The notes under the pieces are model-generated. The model saw only the letters and a program-made list of their open reading frames with translations, ran no database searches and was not told the origin of the DNA. This document shows positions 12,568-30,731 of a stretch of DNA of 64,000 bases, piece by piece. Position numbers and translations under genes: made by a program. Position 1 is the stretch's first letter, and each line of letters opens with the position of its first letter. Source of the stretch: Pseudanabaena sp. Chao 1811 (lineage in GTDB: Bacteria; Cyanobacteriota; Cyanobacteriia; Pseudanabaenales; Pseudanabaenaceae); the NCBI RefSeq assembly GCF_027942295.1, contig NZ_CP101416.1, positions 3,954,501-4,018,500 on the forward strand. Direction: 5' to 3'.

Positions 12568-13581
12568 ATGGCGATCGAAAAAGAAGAGCAGAATCTAGCA
12601 GTTGATGATGATCCAATTATCAGTCAACCCCAAAAATCAACTAAACCATCGAGTTTCAAAGTATTTTCTGCTCATTTAAAAGCACTGCGACCGAAACAGT
12701 GGACTAAGAACCTAGTTGTATTTGCAGCTCCACTTTTTGCCTTTGAAATCACTACAAGATCTCTGTTTGGCGGCTTACTCGCTTTTTGCCTTTTTTGTGC
12801 TACTTCCAGTAGCTTTTATTTAATTAATGACATTCTTGATGTTAAGTCCGATCGCCAACATCCTGTTAAGTCAAAACGACCGATCGCTTCAGGATTAGTT
12901 TCTGTTCCTAATGCGATCGCAATGGCAATCATCCTTTTGGCATCAGCCTTGACGATTAGTTGGTGGCGTGACTCAGGGTTAGGATTAGCGATCCTCAGTT
13001 ATGCGATTCTCCAAGTTTTATATAATCTCCGCCTCAAGCGGACAGTTATTTTAGATGTCGTTGCTATTGCTATTGGTTTCATTCTTAGAGCCTGTGCTGG
13101 AGCTGCCGCTACAGGTATTGTTCTGTCTTCATGGTTTATTCTCTGTACAGCTATGCTTGCCCTGTTTTTAGGTATTGAAAAGCGCAAAGCTGAGCTAAGA
13201 CTATCAGAATTAAGGGGCAAGAAATCTCGTGCTGTCCTCCAACGCTATTCTCTATCCCTATTGAATCGGATGGAAACCGTAGCAACCAATGGCACAATCA
13301 TTACCTATGCGCTTTGGAGTTCTGGACCAATTGTTCGTGGAGCTTCAACATCATGGATGCTAGTTACATTACCTTTTGTTATGTATGGCATTTTTCGCTA
13401 TCAATTGTTAAGCGATCCCCAAGAGATTGCCCGTCGTAGCGCTGATACTGAGCTAGGGGGACAAACCGAGCGACCAGAGGAGGTTTTGTTGAATGATCAA
13501 CCGATCCTAATGACCGTAATAACTTGGATTGCTACAACATTTGGTATTTTAGTTTTAAAAAAATATGGACTTATTTCTTGA
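12568..13581 (+). CDS. Decaprenyl-phosphate phosphoribosyltransferase-like UbiA prenyltransferase
   Basis: A 337-residue UbiA-superfamily membrane protein. LRPKQWTKN near residue 40, the NDILDVKSDRQHP (about 86) acidic motif followed by KSKRPIASG, and the C-terminal TERPEEVLLNDQPIL are hallmarks of the subgroup that moves 5-phosphoribose from PRPP onto polyprenyl phosphate (the mycobacterial DPPR synthase type). About eight or nine membrane helices fit. The first 40 residues are polar. The next gene is a HAD phosphatase and the one after it a small transporter, which fits making and flipping a polyprenyl-phosphate pentose. Ribose specificity is inferred from family. Confidence 0.85.
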   Translation: MAIEKEEQNLAVDDDPIISQPQKSTKPSSFKVFSAHLKALRPKQWTKNLVVFAAPLFAFEITTRSLFGGLLAFCLFCATSSSFYLINDILDVKSDRQHPVKSKRPIASGLVSVPNAIAMAIILLASALTISWWRDSGLGLAILSYAILQVLYNLRLKRTVILDVVAIAIGFILRACAGAAATGIVLSSWFILCTAMLALFLGIEKRKAELRLSELRGKKSRAVLQRYSLSLLNRMETVATNGTIITYALWSSGPIVRGASTSWMLVTLPFVMYGIFRYQLLSDPQEIARRSADTELGGQTERPEEVLLNDQPILMTVITWIATTFGILVLKKYGLIS

Positions 13582-13633
13582 CATTAACTTGACATTAAAT
13601 TTGGATATTCAACTTTAGATATGGAGATTTGCA

Positions 13634-14155
13634 ATGACTTCCTTTCCAACTAAGGCAGATACTTTAGCTTCTATTGATCTTAATCGTTTAGTATCGTTGG
13701 GAATTAAAGGAGTCATCCTCGATTTAGATAACACAATTATTTCTGAGGATGATCGCTATCTATCACCTCATGCCGAAGATTGGATTGCACAGGCAAAAGA
13801 TTTGGGATTGCAATTTTTCTTCTTATCAAATGGCAAAAGGCGCTATCGTGTGGAGTATTGGTCTCACCACTTAAATATACCTGCAATTAGTCCAGCTAAA
13901 AAGCCCTTTCCAAGTGCATTTCACAAAGCAATGAAGCATATGCAGCTTATACCAAAACAAGTTATCGTAATTGGGGATAGTCGCCATACAGATGTTTTTG
14001 GGGCATGGCTATCAGGTTGTCGCAGCATTCAAGTTGCCTCTCTACCGCATCCACCTCGCTGGTGGGAAAAACTGCTAGGAAAATATGTCCAAACGCCCTA
14101 TCCTAAAAAACTTGAACTTTGGGATTATCAAGCCTCAATTCACAATCAAAACTAG
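13634..14155 (+). CDS. YqeG family HAD IIIA-type phosphatase
   Basis: A 173-residue HAD phosphatase. VILDLDNTII (about residue 31) is the DxDxT nucleophile motif, FFLSNGKRR carries the motif II Ser, the Lys of motif III lies in SPAKKPFP, and VIGDSRHTDV (about 114) is motif IV. It lies 52 bp after the DPPR-synthase-like gene. In the actinobacterial pathway a separate phosphatase removes the 5-phosphate after that step, so this protein could do the same job here. YqeG proteins are also widespread alone, so the link is inference from position. Confidence 0.85.
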   Translation: MTSFPTKADTLASIDLNRLVSLGIKGVILDLDNTIISEDDRYLSPHAEDWIAQAKDLGLQFFFLSNGKRRYRVEYWSHHLNIPAISPAKKPFPSAFHKAMKHMQLIPKQVIVIGDSRHTDVFGAWLSGCRSIQVASLPHPPRWWEKLLGKYVQTPYPKKLELWDYQASIHNQN

Positions 14156-14587: not shown

Positions 14588-15697
14588 ATGGTTGCTAATA
14601 ATAACGATCAAAAAACAAAAAAGTTTGAGGGATTTGATTTCTTACGGGCAATTTTTGCGATCGCTATAGTTGCCGATCATGCTGGTCTTTTTTCTGTTGC
14701 AACAATACAAGAATTAAACTTTGTAACAAATGCTTTGTATGCTAATTTTAGCTATGTTGCAGTTCCAGTATTTTTCCAAATATCACTATTTTTATTTTAT
14801 TTTAAAGGTGAAAAATTGGAACTTAGTAGCTTTTTCAGAAAGAGAATAGTTAAACTAATTTATCTTTATCTTTTTTGGGTTTCTACTTTTACAGCTTTAA
14901 AGATTTTGTTTGCAAAAGGATTAACTGGCTTCACTGGTTTTGATTCTTTATCGGTTAGAAGTGCCCTTGAATTCATAATTAGTGGTGGCAATTCACCACT
15001 TTATTTCTTCTTCTCATTGATTTTCATAACTAGTCTTGCTAGTGGAGTAATTTTCTTATATAAGAAAACAGAAAATAACTCTTTGCAACTATTGATTAGT
15101 TACTGCCTACTTGTCCTGTCTTGTTTGTTAATACTTTCTTTTTCAGTAACTGACATTGTTATTAACCTTATTGGTAGTCAAGAAATACCTGCTATGGCAG
15201 CAATATCCAATATTGCCCGTTGGAATTATAACCCTTTAAATTTCCTGCCTTATCTATTCACTGCATCGATCACTGTACAGGAGTTCTATCAGGGTGATTT
15301 ACAAAAACAAGCTTCATACTTGAACAAGAGACTGTGGAGTTTATTTTTGCTGTTTTTGATATTTACTTTGTTGGAGTGGGTTTTACTTAAAAATTTACTT
15401 CACTATTCGAGACTTTCTCTTGTATTTGGATCATGGTTACTTCTATATCTTGCATTGATATCAAAACAAAAACCTACATATATTATTTCTCTTGTTTCAA
15501 GTCTATCATTAGGTATTTATGTAATACATTTATTTCTTACACATATTTTTTGGATAGAAGTTCCAAACTTCTCCAATATAACTTTTGATTTTCTACCTAG
15601 ATTATATGTAATAGTTAGGTTTGTAATTGTCTTAGTCTCTTCTATTGCTATAACTTATCTTTTGAAAAAGACTAAATTCCTAAATAAGTTTGTCTAA
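14588..15697 (+). CDS. Membrane acyltransferase family protein
   Basis: A 369-residue polytopic protein of about ten membrane helices. FEGFDFLRAIFAIAIVADHA at the start is the acyltransferase 3-like first helix with conserved Arg and His; LFYFKGEKLELSSFFRKRI matches the following cytoplasmic loop. It probably O-acylates a sugar or lipid-linked intermediate. The gene is more AT-rich than most neighbours, like the flanking hexapeptide acyltransferase. The two acyltransferases may act on the same product, but no substrate can be named. Confidence 0.82.
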   Translation: MVANNNDQKTKKFEGFDFLRAIFAIAIVADHAGLFSVATIQELNFVTNALYANFSYVAVPVFFQISLFLFYFKGEKLELSSFFRKRIVKLIYLYLFWVSTFTALKILFAKGLTGFTGFDSLSVRSALEFIISGGNSPLYFFFSLIFITSLASGVIFLYKKTENNSLQLLISYCLLVLSCLLILSFSVTDIVINLIGSQEIPAMAAISNIARWNYNPLNFLPYLFTASITVQEFYQGDLQKQASYLNKRLWSLFLLFLIFTLLEWVLLKNLLHYSRLSLVFGSWLLLYLALISKQKPTYIISLVSSLSLGIYVIHLFLTHIFWIEVPNFSNITFDFLPRLYVIVRFVIVLVSSIAITYLLKKTKFLNKFV

Positions 15698-23181: not shown

Positions 23182-23227
23182 ATGCTAGAAATAAACCGTA
23201 GCCAATGCTAGAAATAAACTGTAACCG
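23182..23227 (+). repeat. 23-bp tandem duplication across the start of the adenylation-domain gene
   Basis: ATGCTAGAAATAAAC begins both copies (23182-23204 and 23205-23227); the 23-bp units agree at 20 positions. Each carries an ATG, in different frames. The first ATG opens only ten codons, ending in TAG inside the second copy; the second ATG starts the long gene. Confidence 0.85.
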
Positions 23228-25622
23228 AATTGGAATAGTAGCAGTTAATCATACTGGCTATGTGGAAGCAATGTTGCGATGCATAGAGGATGGGAACATT
23301 GCTGTACCCCTTAGGTTAGACAATGATCATGATCGCATTAATGCAGCCAATGTAACAAAGATTATAACGCCTACTTTTGATGGGGATTGGATGACGAGAA
23401 AATTCACTCCCCAAGAAATTGATGCAGTCGCCCTAATTTCTTTCACTTCTGGCACAGAAGGGAATCCAAAGGGCGTAATCTTAACCCACAAAAACTTAAC
23501 AGAGGTAGTTACACGGTTGAACTCGGTCATGCGTCTGGACAATAGTATTCGTGAGTATATTGGTGTACCCGTTTACCATTCATTTGGATTTGGTCGCTGT
23601 CGAGCAGTTGCTACGGTAGGAGGGCAGTTTTTCATCCCCAGCAATGGATTTAACCCCTCTGAAATTGGAACAATGCTCAGAAATGGTGAAATCAACTCTA
23701 TCTCAGCCGTTCCTAGCCTTTGGCGGTTATTGTTAGTTAATAAGGATCTCATTGGTAGTTATGGTAAAAGAGTCCGATGGATTGAAATTGGTAGCCAATA
23801 CATGAGTCGTCAAGAAAAAGAAGAGCTTAGAAACCTGTTTCCTGAAGCAAGAATTGTCCAACACTATGGTCTAACAGAAGCATCGCGAACCACACTGCTT
23901 GAGATCCATCAGGCAGAAGGGGATGCCTTAGAGTCGGTCGGTCAAGCCTTAGGAAGTGTAAACATCAAGCTAACTGAGGCAGGACGAATTAGCATTCGAG
24001 GCGAACATGTTGCCCAAGCATATCTAATCGATGGCAAAGAGGTAAAGCTTAAAGACGAGGAGGGATGGTTCCTGACTAATGATTTAGGAAGCTTGGAGAA
24101 TGGTTATCTGTACTATAAGGGTAGAGCAGATGACGTAATCAACTGCGGTGGCATCAAAGTCCATCCTGAAACTTTAGAAACAAAGGTTTATGCCAGCATT
24201 GGCTACAGCAATGGTATTGCAATTTGTCGCAAGACAGACCCAATGCGCGGAGATGGTTTTTTAGTTGCGGTGACAAGCGAAGTACAGATCGATAAGCAAC
24301 AACTGAGAACATTAGTCTTACAGTCTATTCAAGATATGGGGGTTAATGCTGGTAACGCTATCACAATCATTGATGTTGATAGTCTACCCAAAACTGCAAC
24401 TGGAAAAATCCAGAGGAAACAATTAGCTGAGTGGTACATGCGAGAATTCCCCCAAGAAGATCGACAAATAGACTCTCTAGATGAACCCGCATCTGATAAT
24501 TCGCCTATTCAAGCTATTTTTTGTCGAACTCTTAAAGTCAACCAAATTCAAATTGAAGACACATTCATCTCCTTAGGAGGAGATTCTCTATCCTACGTCC
24601 AGATTTCAATGGAGCTTGAGCGTTATCTTGGATATCTTCCTAAAAAATGGGAACAGGTACCTTTGAATGATTTGGGAAAGTTAGCTCCCCAAAAGAGAAT
24701 ATCTACAATCATCGAAATGAATACTCTGTTGAGAGCCTTAGCCATTTCTGGCGTTGTGGTTAATCAATCTGGTTTACTCTTTATCGAAGGAGGCGCATTG
24801 TTACTACTTCTAATCGCTGGTTTAAACTTTTCACGGTTTCAGGGATGTTCTTTGATTAAGGGGCAGTTACATTCCATTACGCCGCTACTGCGACATATCT
24901 TAATTCCTTATTTAACTCTTGCGATCGCCTACCAAGCTTTTAAGCAAAACTTTGATCCTTTAGTCTTATTATTGCTAGGAAATTTTCAACATCCAGAGAT
25001 ACAAGCTTCAAATTCAATCTTCTTTGTTTGGTTTATTTCTAATCTTTGTCAAACTATTATTCTTTTTTCTCTTCCTTTTACTATTCCGAATGTACGCAGT
25101 TTTGCAGGTACATCTCCTTGGGAATTTGGGCTCATCTATCTAGTGATTGGTGTGGTTGCACACCTTCTAGGTCCATATATATGGGATACTAGTTATCTAT
25201 ACGATCAAGTACCACATATGTTGTTTTGGTTGTTTACGCTAGGATGGTGTATACACTTTGCTAAATCTAAAGTTGAAAAAGTAATCACTACACTCATAGT
25301 TATAATTATTACACCAGCTTTTATTGGATTTGATGTTTTAGGAAGTTGGTGGGTTTTAATTGGAGCAATTCTGTTGATTTGGCTACCTTATGTGTCTATC
25401 CCAAGCATCATCAAATCTCCTATACAAATGATTAGTGCGGCATCATATTATATTTATCTAACGGTCTTAATTTTTATACATCTTGCCACTCGTGTAGCAG
25501 GAATTCGCTATCCTTTTGTTACTGCCATAATAGTCTTGTTAGGAGGTGTGCTTACTTGGGGAGCAGTTCAATCGTTGCCACAATTTCTACAGAAACTCAA
25601 ACAATTCCAGATCCAGATATAA
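23205..25622 (+). CDS. Adenylation domain - carrier domain - membrane acyltransferase fusion
   Basis: An 805-residue protein in three parts. Residues 1-410 form an AMP-forming adenylation domain with SFTSGTEGNPKGVILTHK (about 83), VQHYGLTEAS (about 222) and TGKIQRKQ near its end. Residues 430-500 form a carrier domain with FISLGGDSLSYVQ, whose Ser would bear phosphopantetheine. Residues 520-805 hold about nine membrane helices of acyltransferase character. The design suggests activating an acid, loading it on the carrier and transferring it at the membrane. The adenylation domain starts about 45 residues late compared with standard ones. Substrate unknown. Confidence 0.82.
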   Translation: MLEINCNRIGIVAVNHTGYVEAMLRCIEDGNIAVPLRLDNDHDRINAANVTKIITPTFDGDWMTRKFTPQEIDAVALISFTSGTEGNPKGVILTHKNLTEVVTRLNSVMRLDNSIREYIGVPVYHSFGFGRCRAVATVGGQFFIPSNGFNPSEIGTMLRNGEINSISAVPSLWRLLLVNKDLIGSYGKRVRWIEIGSQYMSRQEKEELRNLFPEARIVQHYGLTEASRTTLLEIHQAEGDALESVGQALGSVNIKLTEAGRISIRGEHVAQAYLIDGKEVKLKDEEGWFLTNDLGSLENGYLYYKGRADDVINCGGIKVHPETLETKVYASIGYSNGIAICRKTDPMRGDGFLVAVTSEVQIDKQQLRTLVLQSIQDMGVNAGNAITIIDVDSLPKTATGKIQRKQLAEWYMREFPQEDRQIDSLDEPASDNSPIQAIFCRTLKVNQIQIEDTFISLGGDSLSYVQISMELERYLGYLPKKWEQVPLNDLGKLAPQKRISTIIEMNTLLRALAISGVVVNQSGLLFIEGGALLLLLIAGLNFSRFQGCSLIKGQLHSITPLLRHILIPYLTLAIAYQAFKQNFDPLVLLLLGNFQHPEIQASNSIFFVWFISNLCQTIILFSLPFTIPNVRSFAGTSPWEFGLIYLVIGVVAHLLGPYIWDTSYLYDQVPHMLFWLFTLGWCIHFAKSKVEKVITTLIVIIITPAFIGFDVLGSWWVLIGAILLIWLPYVSIPSIIKSPIQMISAASYYIYLTVLIFIHLATRVAGIRYPFVTAIIVLLGGVLTWGAVQSLPQFLQKLKQFQIQI

Positions 25623-29570: not shown

Positions 29571-30731
29571 ATGAGAGTTCTAACAGTCCATAATTACTAT
29601 CAACAGCCTGGTGGCGAAGAGCAGATTTTTGCGACAGAAAGCGCTTTGCTGGAATCCCACGGGCATGAAGTTACTCGCTATACTCTCAATAATGATGAGA
29701 TTGCAACTACCAACCCGTTAATTTTGGCTAAAAAAACTTTATGGAATGGCAAGGTCTATCGAGATTTGCGATCGCTAATTCGTAAAGTCAAACCTCAAGT
29801 TGCACACTTTCATAATACCTTCCCCTTAATTTCCCCATCGGCATACTATGCTGCCAAAGATGAAGGAGTCGCCGTAGTGCAAACCCTCCATAATTACCGC
29901 TTACTATGTCCCAATGCTTTATTTTTTCGAGAAGGGCGTGTCTGCGAAGATTGCTTAGGTAAAGTTCCATTGCCAGCAATAGTTCATGGTTGTTACCGAG
30001 GTAGTCGCAGTGCCAGTGCTATGACCGCAGCGACTACTAGCTTCCATTCCTCCATAGGAACTTGGAGCAAGGCAGTAGATGTATTTATTGTCTACAGCCA
30101 ATTTGCGATGGATAAATTTATTCAAGGTGGCATACCTGCCGAGAAACTAGCCTTCAAGACTAACTTTTTGCATCCAGCACCTGAACCTGACCAAGGTGAT
30201 GGAGGCTATGGCTTATTTGTGGGTCGCTTATCTGTCGAAAAAGGACTAGGAGTGATGCTAGATGCATGGCGAAAACTAGATAACAAAATTCCTCTAAAAA
30301 TACTGGGTGATGGACCCATGTCAGGTCTAGTAACTGAAGCTGCTAAAGAAATGCCTGAGATTGAATGGCTAGGACGTAGACCCTTAGAAGAAGTATATGA
30401 AATCGTTGGAAAAGCAGCTTTTTTAGTATTTCCTTCTGAATGGTATGAGACCTTTGGAAGAGTAGCGATCGAGGCTTTTGCAAAGGGAACACCAGTAGTA
30501 GCATCAAACATTGGGGCGATCGCAGAGTTAATAGAGCATGGGCGTAATGGTCTACTCTTTCGTCCTAGTGATCCCACCGATCTAGCAGCCAAAATTAATT
30601 GGTTGCTGGAGCATCCTCAAGAACTCCGTCAAATGCGATCGGCGGCAAGGACTGAGTTTGATGATAAATACACTGCTGATGATAATTGTAAACGGCTATT
30701 AGAGATTTACCAGACTGCTCTTAAGCATTAA
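29571..30731 (+). CDS. Family 4 glycosyltransferase
   Basis: A 386-residue GT-B enzyme. HNYYQQPGGEEQIFATESAL is the start of a well-known GT4 subfamily; HNYRLLCPNALFFREGRVCE and a CxDC-type segment are also typical. FVGRLSVEKGLGVMLDAW opens the donor domain and FPSEWYETFGRVAIEAFAKG contains E-x7-E. Last of the four-gene GT4 run. Probably assembles one repeat unit with its neighbours; donor unknown. Confidence 0.9.
   Translation: MRVLTVHNYYQQPGGEEQIFATESALLESHGHEVTRYTLNNDEIATTNPLILAKKTLWNGKVYRDLRSLIRKVKPQVAHFHNTFPLISPSAYYAAKDEGVAVVQTLHNYRLLCPNALFFREGRVCEDCLGKVPLPAIVHGCYRGSRSASAMTAATTSFHSSIGTWSKAVDVFIVYSQFAMDKFIQGGIPAEKLAFKTNFLHPAPEPDQGDGGYGLFVGRLSVEKGLGVMLDAWRKLDNKIPLKILGDGPMSGLVTEAAKEMPEIEWLGRRPLEEVYEIVGKAAFLVFPSEWYETFGRVAIEAFAKGTPVVASNIGAIAELIEHGRNGLLFRPSDPTDLAAKINWLLEHPQELRQMRSAARTEFDDKYTADDNCKRLLEIYQTALKH

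Follow-up and report, generated by a model that had tools for sequence, protein, structure and literature searches.

How might an acyltransferase buried in the membrane be supplied with its donor by the very polypeptide of which it is a part? This question is raised by a gene in a 64,000-nucleotide stretch of the genome of the cyanobacterium Pseudanabaena sp. Chao 1811 (contig NZ_CP101416.1, positions 3,954,501 to 4,018,500, forward strand; hereafter referred to as the window), whose product joins an adenylation domain and a carrier domain to a membrane domain that resembles the TmAT/AT3 superfamily of acyltransferases. We propose, with a probability of about 0.6, that this fusion protein is a self-contained transmembrane acylation machine. 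Its parts and diagnostic residues are listed below in window coordinates, with TM1 and TMH9 denoting the first and ninth transmembrane helices; related loci are cited by L numbers.

23205..25622, + strand: fusion gene, adenylation, carrier and TmAT domains (805 amino acids; open reading frame list, Pfam, AlphaFold2 models, VIA-align)
23205..24479, + strand: compact adenylation domain of the ANL superfamily, residues ~1-425 (PF00501; fold match)
23439..23474, + strand: A3 phosphate loop SFTSGTEGNPKG (invariant residues in an 18-sequence alignment)
23577..23597, + strand: A4 segment HSFGFGR (without the Asp of amino acid-activating domains; Arg conserved in class I)
24405..24407, + strand: A10 lysine K401 within PKTATGK (invariant in 18 sequences)
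24498..24674, + strand: carrier domain, residues ~432-490 (PF00550 at residues 435-476)
24585..24587, + strand: Ser461 of LGGDSL, the phosphopantetheine attachment site (74/74 members)
24702..25619, + strand: membrane acyltransferase domain of the TmAT/AT3 type, residues 500-805 (model fold; PF01757 in relatives)
24732..24734, + strand: Arg510 of the R-X10-H motif in TM1 (74/74 members with a residue there)
24765..24767, + strand: Gln521 (CAA) in place of the conserved TM1 His (Gln confined to the window and L027)
25455..25457, + strand: Tyr751 of the SxxxY motif in TMH9 (Tyr in 71/74)

The frame is free of internal stops, and in its 805-residue product Pfam recognizes an AMP-binding domain (PF00501, residues 67-274, E 9.5e-30) and a PP-binding domain (PF00550, residues 435-476, E 5.7e-07), followed by ~310 residues with no Pfam match and, hence, none to PF01757 (Acyl_transf_3). 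When 25 family members, the window protein included, were scanned in the same way, the AMP-binding domain was present in all of them, the PP-binding domain in 24 and Acyl_transf_3 in 15 (E<=0.01). Pfam, the fold of the membrane part and the relatives thus agree with the proposal of the first-pass annotation that activation, carriage and membrane-bound transfer are united in one chain. That annotation had named two findings that would speak against its proposal, a C-terminal region lacking acyltransferase features and a carrier serine that varies among homologs; neither applies, because the serine is conserved and the C-terminal region has a TmAT fold. The full-length model (mean pLDDT, the predicted local distance difference test score, 83; pTM, the predicted template-modeling score, 0.47) finds its best Foldseek match in the adenylation-peptidyl carrier protein (A-PCP) structure of McyG (4r0m) and, because of its pTM, was not used for docking.

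The membrane part proved accessible through its structure. For the last 317 residues, an AlphaFold2 model built from 16 aligned sequences reached a mean pLDDT of 85. Foldseek alone returned no match for it at E<=0.001, and a profile search against solved sequences left it unmatched, but a comparison with VIA-align over 794 chains pre-ranked by Foldseek placed human HGSNAT (8vkj) first, with a Z score of 13.5 over 265 residues at a root mean square deviation (rmsd) of 4.7, and GWT1 (8xij) second, with a Z score of 9.6 over 244 residues at an rmsd of 4.8, whereas the next, unrelated row scored 5.3. HGSNAT, GWT1 and the bacterial AT3 enzymes together constitute the TmAT superfamily (PMC12423673). 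Because VIA-align and the Pfam matches of relatives converge, we consider the identity of this domain settled: judged by its modeled fold, it is an acyltransferase of the TmAT/AT3 superfamily.

Sequence motifs were counted in 75 C-termini that remained after the removal of seven identical ones; the 72 distinct members referred to below are distinct in their last 300 residues and have Arg at the TM1 column. Arg510 is conserved in all 74 members with a residue at its column, and the SxxxY motif of TMH9 is present in the window protein (Ser747, Tyr751), with Tyr in 71 of 74 members. The acidic residue of the TM1 DxxR motif, by contrast, is found in none of the 72 fusion members, whereas a simple pattern detects Asp at this position in 14 of 24 control AT3 frames and Glu in another 5; two of these 24 frames lack R-X10-H in the stretch examined, and the pattern matches in C117 and C121 are apparently spurious.

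The nature of the acid that is activated can be approached through the adenylation domain. Its A3 loop (T81, S82, G83, G86 and K89), the A5 motif YGxTE (YGLTE in the window), the A7 residue Asp293 and the A10 residue K401 are all invariant in an alignment of 18 sequences that includes the window protein, and residues 2-416 of the full-length model align with ANL enzymes, among them McbA (6h1b, Z 29.8 over 385 residues) and DltA (3e7w, Z 28.8 over 400 residues). The A3 loop, the A5 and A10 motifs and the ANL fold are thus all in place. Since the alignment begins only at residue ~41-52 of these enzymes, the domain lacks the ~45-50 N-terminal residues of the usual ANL fold. The same short form recurs in L027-L037 and L043, the cyanobacterial relatives that belong to this type, so that it represents the natural state of the domain, and a truncated or damaged N-terminus can be ruled out.

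Amino acid-activating adenylation domains use an Asp in the A4 motif to hold the amino group of the substrate. No such residue was found at the A4 position of the window protein, which reads HSFGFGR; among the 18 listed members of class I, the segment begins with HSFG, YSFG or FSFG, and its Arg is present in 18/18. The solved sequences nearest to the domain are FadD5, oxalate-CoA ligases and a malonyl-CoA synthetase. By sequence, it therefore is a domain of the acyl-CoA ligase type, and its substrate is probably not an amino acid. Because the pocket Arg is universal in class I and oxalate and malonate ligases lie nearby in sequence, our best guess is that the acid is short and bears a second negatively charged group, as dicarboxylates do. 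These features bear directly on the suggestion, made in the first-pass annotation, of a D-alanylation-like process, in which D-alanine or another amino acid would be added to glycans. The functions do follow one another as in DltA-DltC-DltB, the fold matches include DltA, and some of the relatives with an additional condensation domain (see below) may use amino acids. However, the A4 motif and the nearest solved sequences do not support such chemistry. DltB is a member of the MBOAT family, whereas the membrane part of the fusion matches TmAT structures, so a kinship with DltB is not supported either, and we regard Dlt-like aminoacylation as a most improbable function for the window protein.

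The carrier domain combines a significant PF00550 match with an attachment site, Ser461, that is retained in 74/74 members with a residue at this column. The host genome contains just two PP-binding domains above the cut-off, one in the fusion and one in a 79-codon frame that presumably represents the fatty-acid carrier, and a single phosphopantetheinyl transferase match, located in a 244-codon frame.

The fusion is not confined to Pseudanabaena. It is present in 2 of 26 genomes of the genus and in 17 of 388 genomes of the class (own genome included in both cases), where it forms 18 open frames of 765-933 residues. A scan of the genomes of 84,980 species uncovered 64 loci in three phyla, the cyanobacteria, the proteobacteria (including Beggiatoa-like bacteria, rhizobia, sphingomonads and others) and the actinobacteria; nine of these loci duplicate genomes of the class-wide survey. 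YGxTE lies in the same frame as the carrier-TmAT part in 59 of the 63 loci analyzed, which, together with the recurrence of long open frames, argues that the fusion did not arise by chance. The other four comprise L097, with the adenylation domain in the gene immediately upstream, and three Mesorhizobium copies (L064, L066 and L094), in which it occupies an adjacent or overlapping frame different from that of the carrier-TmAT part; these three genes are probably broken. The persistence of the adenylation linkage across loci suggests that the carrier feeds the TmAT domain.

In a plasmid collection, 86 records matched. Among the 25 of these matches listed, 20 are labeled 'AMP-binding protein', one is labeled 'AMP-dependent synthetase' and four lack a feature; the membrane part has thus been overlooked in the listed copies. 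Two particular arrangements deserve mention: a Parabeggiatoa contig (L046:1157-6498) carries two adjacent fusion genes in tandem, and on plasmid pRspN621c of a bean-nodule Rhizobium (L131:7570-15270), the fusion gene is followed by genes for AAA/cyclase-domain, YcaO and TfuA-like proteins.

The modules of the fusion do not share a single history. L038 and L028 are 45% identical in their TmAT parts and 24% in their adenylation domains, whereas L043 and L028 share 69% identity in the adenylation domain and 37% in the TmAT part. We computed quick trees of 30 hand-picked rows; the underlying split omitted the nine loci that duplicate genomes of the class and seven rows lacking the simple carrier motif (L074, L079, L082, L085, L086, L094 and the tandem copy of L046). 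In the adenylation tree, class I falls on one side of a branch with a support of 100, a grouping rejected by the TmAT data (P value of the approximately unbiased test, p-AU, 0.0064). Conversely, in the TmAT tree the cyanobacterial-type class I members and class II form one group (support 93, not starred), and this union is in turn rejected by the adenylation data (p-AU 0.0008). Because the two trees are discordant, these results indicate that adenylation domains were swapped onto a conserved carrier-TmAT core, such that different members would deliver different acids.

A further variation is seen in L098 (7013-11158), L101 (6809-11173) and L103 (1242-5396), whose products of ~1,400 residues contain a Pfam condensation domain ahead of the adenylation domain. 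Their carrier and TmAT parts were recognized not by Pfam but by LGGDSL, R-X10-H and a tblastn match, and they apparently represent non-ribosomal peptide synthetase (NRPS) modules that end in the membrane. It is tempting to speculate, if only tentatively, that the whole family constitutes an NRPS-like class in which the TmAT domain serves as the release domain: the pantetheine arm would enter the transmembrane pore in place of coenzyme A (CoA), the acyl group or, where a condensation domain comes first, the peptidyl group would pass from the fused carrier to an extracytoplasmic acceptor, the exchangeable adenylation domains would choose the acid, and the acid of the actinobacterial members could be a surface-fixed iron ligand that supplies a ferric transporter.

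From these features we infer a sequence of four reactions, together with the kind of acid and acceptor involved. The adenylation domain, located in the cytosol, would first convert a non-amino carboxylic acid into acyl-AMP. The acyl group would then move onto the phosphopantetheine arm of Ser461 in the fused carrier, which, in the third step, would dock where the TmAT domain opens to the cytosol; a pantetheinyl thioester tethered to the protein would thus stand in for the free acyl-CoA of ordinary AT3 enzymes. Finally, the TmAT domain would transfer the acyl group to a hydroxyl outside the cytoplasm, which in the cluster of the window probably belongs to a lipid-linked or growing glycan. In the window protein, the residues required for activation and loading (the A3 loop, YGLTE, K401 and Ser461) are intact. 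The fusion itself and the absence of the DxxR acid from 72/72 members both suggest that the fused carrier, rather than free CoA, would be the donor.

The last of these steps is the one affected by the most conspicuous peculiarity of the window protein. The His of the TM1 R-X10-H motif is conserved in 70 of the 72 distinct members, and both exceptions have Gln: the window protein, in which Arg510 is kept and the His is replaced by Gln521, and L027 (L027:8713-11130), which is 97% identical to the window protein and encoded in a second genome of the genus. In the 18-sequence alignment, this is the sole position at which these two depart from a residue shared by all 16 others; the window protein retains the rest of the residues that the 16 have in common. 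An assembly error is unlikely, because the identical CAA codon recurs in the second genome. In OafB, the corresponding residue of the AT3 motif, His25, is a proposed catalytic residue (PMC9833829), whereas GWT1 has a TmAT fold and acylates glycosylphosphatidylinositol (GPI) precursors without a TM1 His (PMC12423673). Given this precedent, the kinship of the membrane part with the TmAT enzymes stands despite Gln521. A second residue, the His of the 'YLxH' motif in TMH9 (66/74 members), is Val in the window.

To assess the constraint acting on this copy, we compared the window gene with L027. As a whole, it is under purifying selection (34 synonymous and 23 non-synonymous changes, P 3e-9 against neutrality). 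Of these, 20 and 11, respectively, fall in the adenylation part (P 7e-7; ratio of non-synonymous to synonymous changes per site, pN/pS, 0.16) and 6 and 0 in the carrier part (P 1e-4), whereas the TmAT part, with 8 and 12 (P 0.08, pN/pS 0.47), is not separable from neutral. The contrast between the adenylation-carrier part and the TmAT part (Fisher P 0.046) fits a relaxed constraint on the latter in the two species, albeit on small numbers. Synonymous divergence, obtained by dividing counts, is 0.06 for the fusion gene and 0.21-0.78 for 11 neighboring genes, and because of this marked difference, a recent exchange of the fusion gene between the two species is probable.

Two interpretations of these data compete with a weakened or altered transfer step. 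According to the first, the TmAT part of the window copy is decaying and dead, its adenylation and carrier parts have been kept or are merely young, and the protein acylates nothing. The loss of a near-universal His that has been proposed to be catalytic in OafB, the elevated pN/pS of the TmAT part and the Val in YLxH would all be expected in this case, though near relatives with an intact TM1 His also lack the YLxH His (L029 has Val and L028 Ile). On the other hand, the other invariant columns are intact, both species have an open frame, constraint on the adenylation and carrier parts is evident, and GWT1 functions without that His. We consider a dead enzyme a serious contender, if somewhat short of even odds. 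According to the second interpretation, the enzyme is fully active, with Gln521 either taking over the role of the His or suiting a different acceptor or acyl group. The identical codon in two species, the purifying selection on the whole gene and, again, GWT1 are in line with this idea, but Gln is absent at this site from the 70 remaining distinct members, and the low synonymous divergence means that both copies may derive from one recent event, which makes full activity rather unlikely. Within the acylation machine that we propose, the replacement of the His makes it doubtful that a working machine exists in Pseudanabaena sp. Chao 1811: judging from the conserved residues, the window copy may activate an acid and load it, but its transfer step, like that of the sister protein L027, has probably been weakened or changed. 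The variant thus provides a natural test of the role of the TM1 His.

The neighborhood of the gene offers clues to the acceptor. As the first-pass annotation had recognized, it is located in a polysaccharide cluster: glycosyltransferases, an epimerase, RmlD-type and nucleotidyltransferase genes, a PhyH-type protein and a 1,111-residue protein without family match are encoded around it, as well as a stand-alone AT3 protein (14588-15697) that retains D-X-X-R-X10-H. L027, L028, L029 and L030 share parts of this glycosyltransferase-bearing cluster, L043 carries a relative of the putative glycosyltransferase at 29571-30731, and L107 adjoins a sugar transferase. The cluster of the window also includes, at 12568-14155, genes for a UbiA protein, identified by NCBIfam as decaprenyl-phosphate phosphoribosyltransferase (262 bits, cut-off 207), and a HAD phosphatase, which might supply this cyanobacterial cluster with a polyprenyl-phosphate pentose donor. 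In L029 (186-1262) and L040 (11404-12567), a stand-alone PF01757 gene adjoins the fusion and may encode a partner transferase. At the start of the fusion gene itself lies an imperfect 23-bp direct repeat (23182-23227), also present in the sister genome, which creates an upstream ATG with AGGA 8 bases ahead; the resulting frame of nine codons stops shortly beyond the real ATG.

In other genomes, the surroundings differ. Among the 17 cyanobacterial loci fetched, L031-L034 and L036 have housekeeping neighbors such as metH (methionine synthase), hemC or dapB, as identified by family match or by clustering with a scanned neighbor (the family scan of neighbors was partial or absent for L035 and L037-L042). 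No fixed partner gene emerged when the cyanobacterial loci were searched for one, each neighbor cluster being limited to at most 4 of 19 sources. The largest non-family group in a clustering of the neighbors of all loci (six loci) was disregarded, as it resembles the long antisense frames that GC-rich genomes contain.

A strikingly different association emerged from a survey of 60 loci (17 actinobacterial, 38 others and five on plasmids; some contigs are short, making absences there weak). In 10 of the 17 actinobacterial loci, homologs of FbpA, FbpB and FbpC, which form a ferric-iron ATP-binding cassette (ABC) transporter, are encoded within 9 kb of the fusion, each time with one fbp gene within ~120 bases of its frame. 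The other non-plasmid loci contribute a single case, L078 of Mesorhizobium, so that the flanked loci comprise L063, L073, L075, L078, L082, L083, L086, L089, L091, L096 and L102, plus the Rhodococcus opacus plasmid L133 (10513-14173), the source of the queries, whose record names an iron ABC transporter. L135 has an FbpB match alone, on the opposite strand inside the fusion gene. Eleven such genomes (~85 Mb) yielded 16 FbpA matches, two of which probably represent one split gene; because FbpA homologs are this rare, the chance expectation of finding one beside the fusion is ~0.004 per locus. At E<=1e-5, neither the window nor any of the cyanobacterial loci yielded an FbpA match; a single weak FbpB match was seen in L041, and FbpC-type ATPases occur as they do in any genome.

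Because so many actinobacterial loci adjoin an iron transporter, glycans need not be the sole target of the family, and the first-pass idea of a surface glycan acceptor cannot be generalized, given also the five cyanobacterial loci in housekeeping surroundings. The same observations could be taken to mean that the acceptor is a lipid or a small exported molecule instead of a glycan and that, in actinobacteria, the protein is part of iron uptake. Considering the clusters shared by the window and L027-L030, the sugar transferase beside L107 and the lack of FbpA matches in the cyanobacterial loci, this possibility appears doubtful to us.

Several points weigh against the acylation machine as a whole. 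The full-length model has a pTM of only 0.47, the blocks of its carrier region have pLDDT values of 59-79, and the docking of the carrier on the TmAT domain is a prediction. The trees, quickly built from a choice of 30 rows, include four rows whose branches are long on the TmAT side, and the selection result for the TmAT part is built on 20 changes; the five loci with housekeeping neighbors belong here as well. Moreover, the AT3 enzymes described in the literature use acetyl-CoA, and a review of the family favors acyl-CoA donors for those investigated to date and argues against acyl carrier protein (ACP) donors (PMC9558356). The CoA-binding RxxR motif of TMH3 is found in 9 of 24 controls and 26 of 72 fusions, as judged by a crude pattern whose positions differ, and on these counts we dropped it as a proof of a tethered donor. 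The acyl-CoA donors of ordinary AT3 enzymes, together with RxxR counts that do not discriminate, leave room for a fusion that is incidental, with the TmAT domain using acyl-CoA and the adenylation-carrier part serving another enzyme. Yet the modules co-occur in three phyla and have stayed together through the exchange of adenylation domains, which renders an incidental fusion improbable.

If correct, the acylation machine would extend the known repertoire of membrane acyltransferases. The prevailing view is that AT3/TmAT enzymes draw on free acyl-CoA, and a donor that is both made and held by the enzyme would widen the range of surface groups beyond the CoA pool. The family would also allow a direct test of how an acyl thioester passes through the TmAT pore, and the exchange of adenylation domains and the actinobacterial linkage to iron transporters provide handles on its function. 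In the titles and abstract openings of open-licence papers, we found no description of an adenylation-carrier-AT3 fusion, with domain-architecture listings elsewhere lying outside the scope of this search. The fusion thus seems to be an undescribed but widespread combination of known domains with a new implied donor logic.

Comparison with known systems helps to delineate this logic. With the AT3/TmAT enzymes (PF01757, OafB, HGSNAT and GWT1), the family shares the fold, the TM1 R-X10-H motif in 70/72 members, SxxxY in TMH9 and, presumably, delivery across the membrane; it differs in lacking the DxxR acid (0/72), in possessing its own activation and carrier domains and, in the window, in having Gln for His. 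The DltA-DltC-DltB-DltD system likewise proceeds from ATP-dependent activation through a carrier thioester to a membrane acyltransferase, whereas the fusion is a single chain with an acyl-acid adenylation domain, a TmAT instead of an MBOAT part and no further domain match. Poly-epsilon-lysine synthetase, a membrane NRPS, also combines adenylation domain, carrier and membrane helices in one chain, but its membrane part contains condensation-like domains. Single-module A-PCP proteins, such as McyG A-PCP and the EntE-EntB fusion structures, have the same succession of adenylation and carrier domains, but they do not terminate in a membrane acyltransferase. Finally, AT3 domains are known to be fused to helper domains, those named in a review being SGNH, as in OafB and OatA, and alanine racemase, as in VanT (PMC9558356), and other AT3 fusions exist in Eukarya (PMC9833829, eLife). 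Unlike the helpers of the AT3-SGNH and VanT proteins, that of the fusion described here would make and hold the donor, presumably on the cytosolic side of the membrane.

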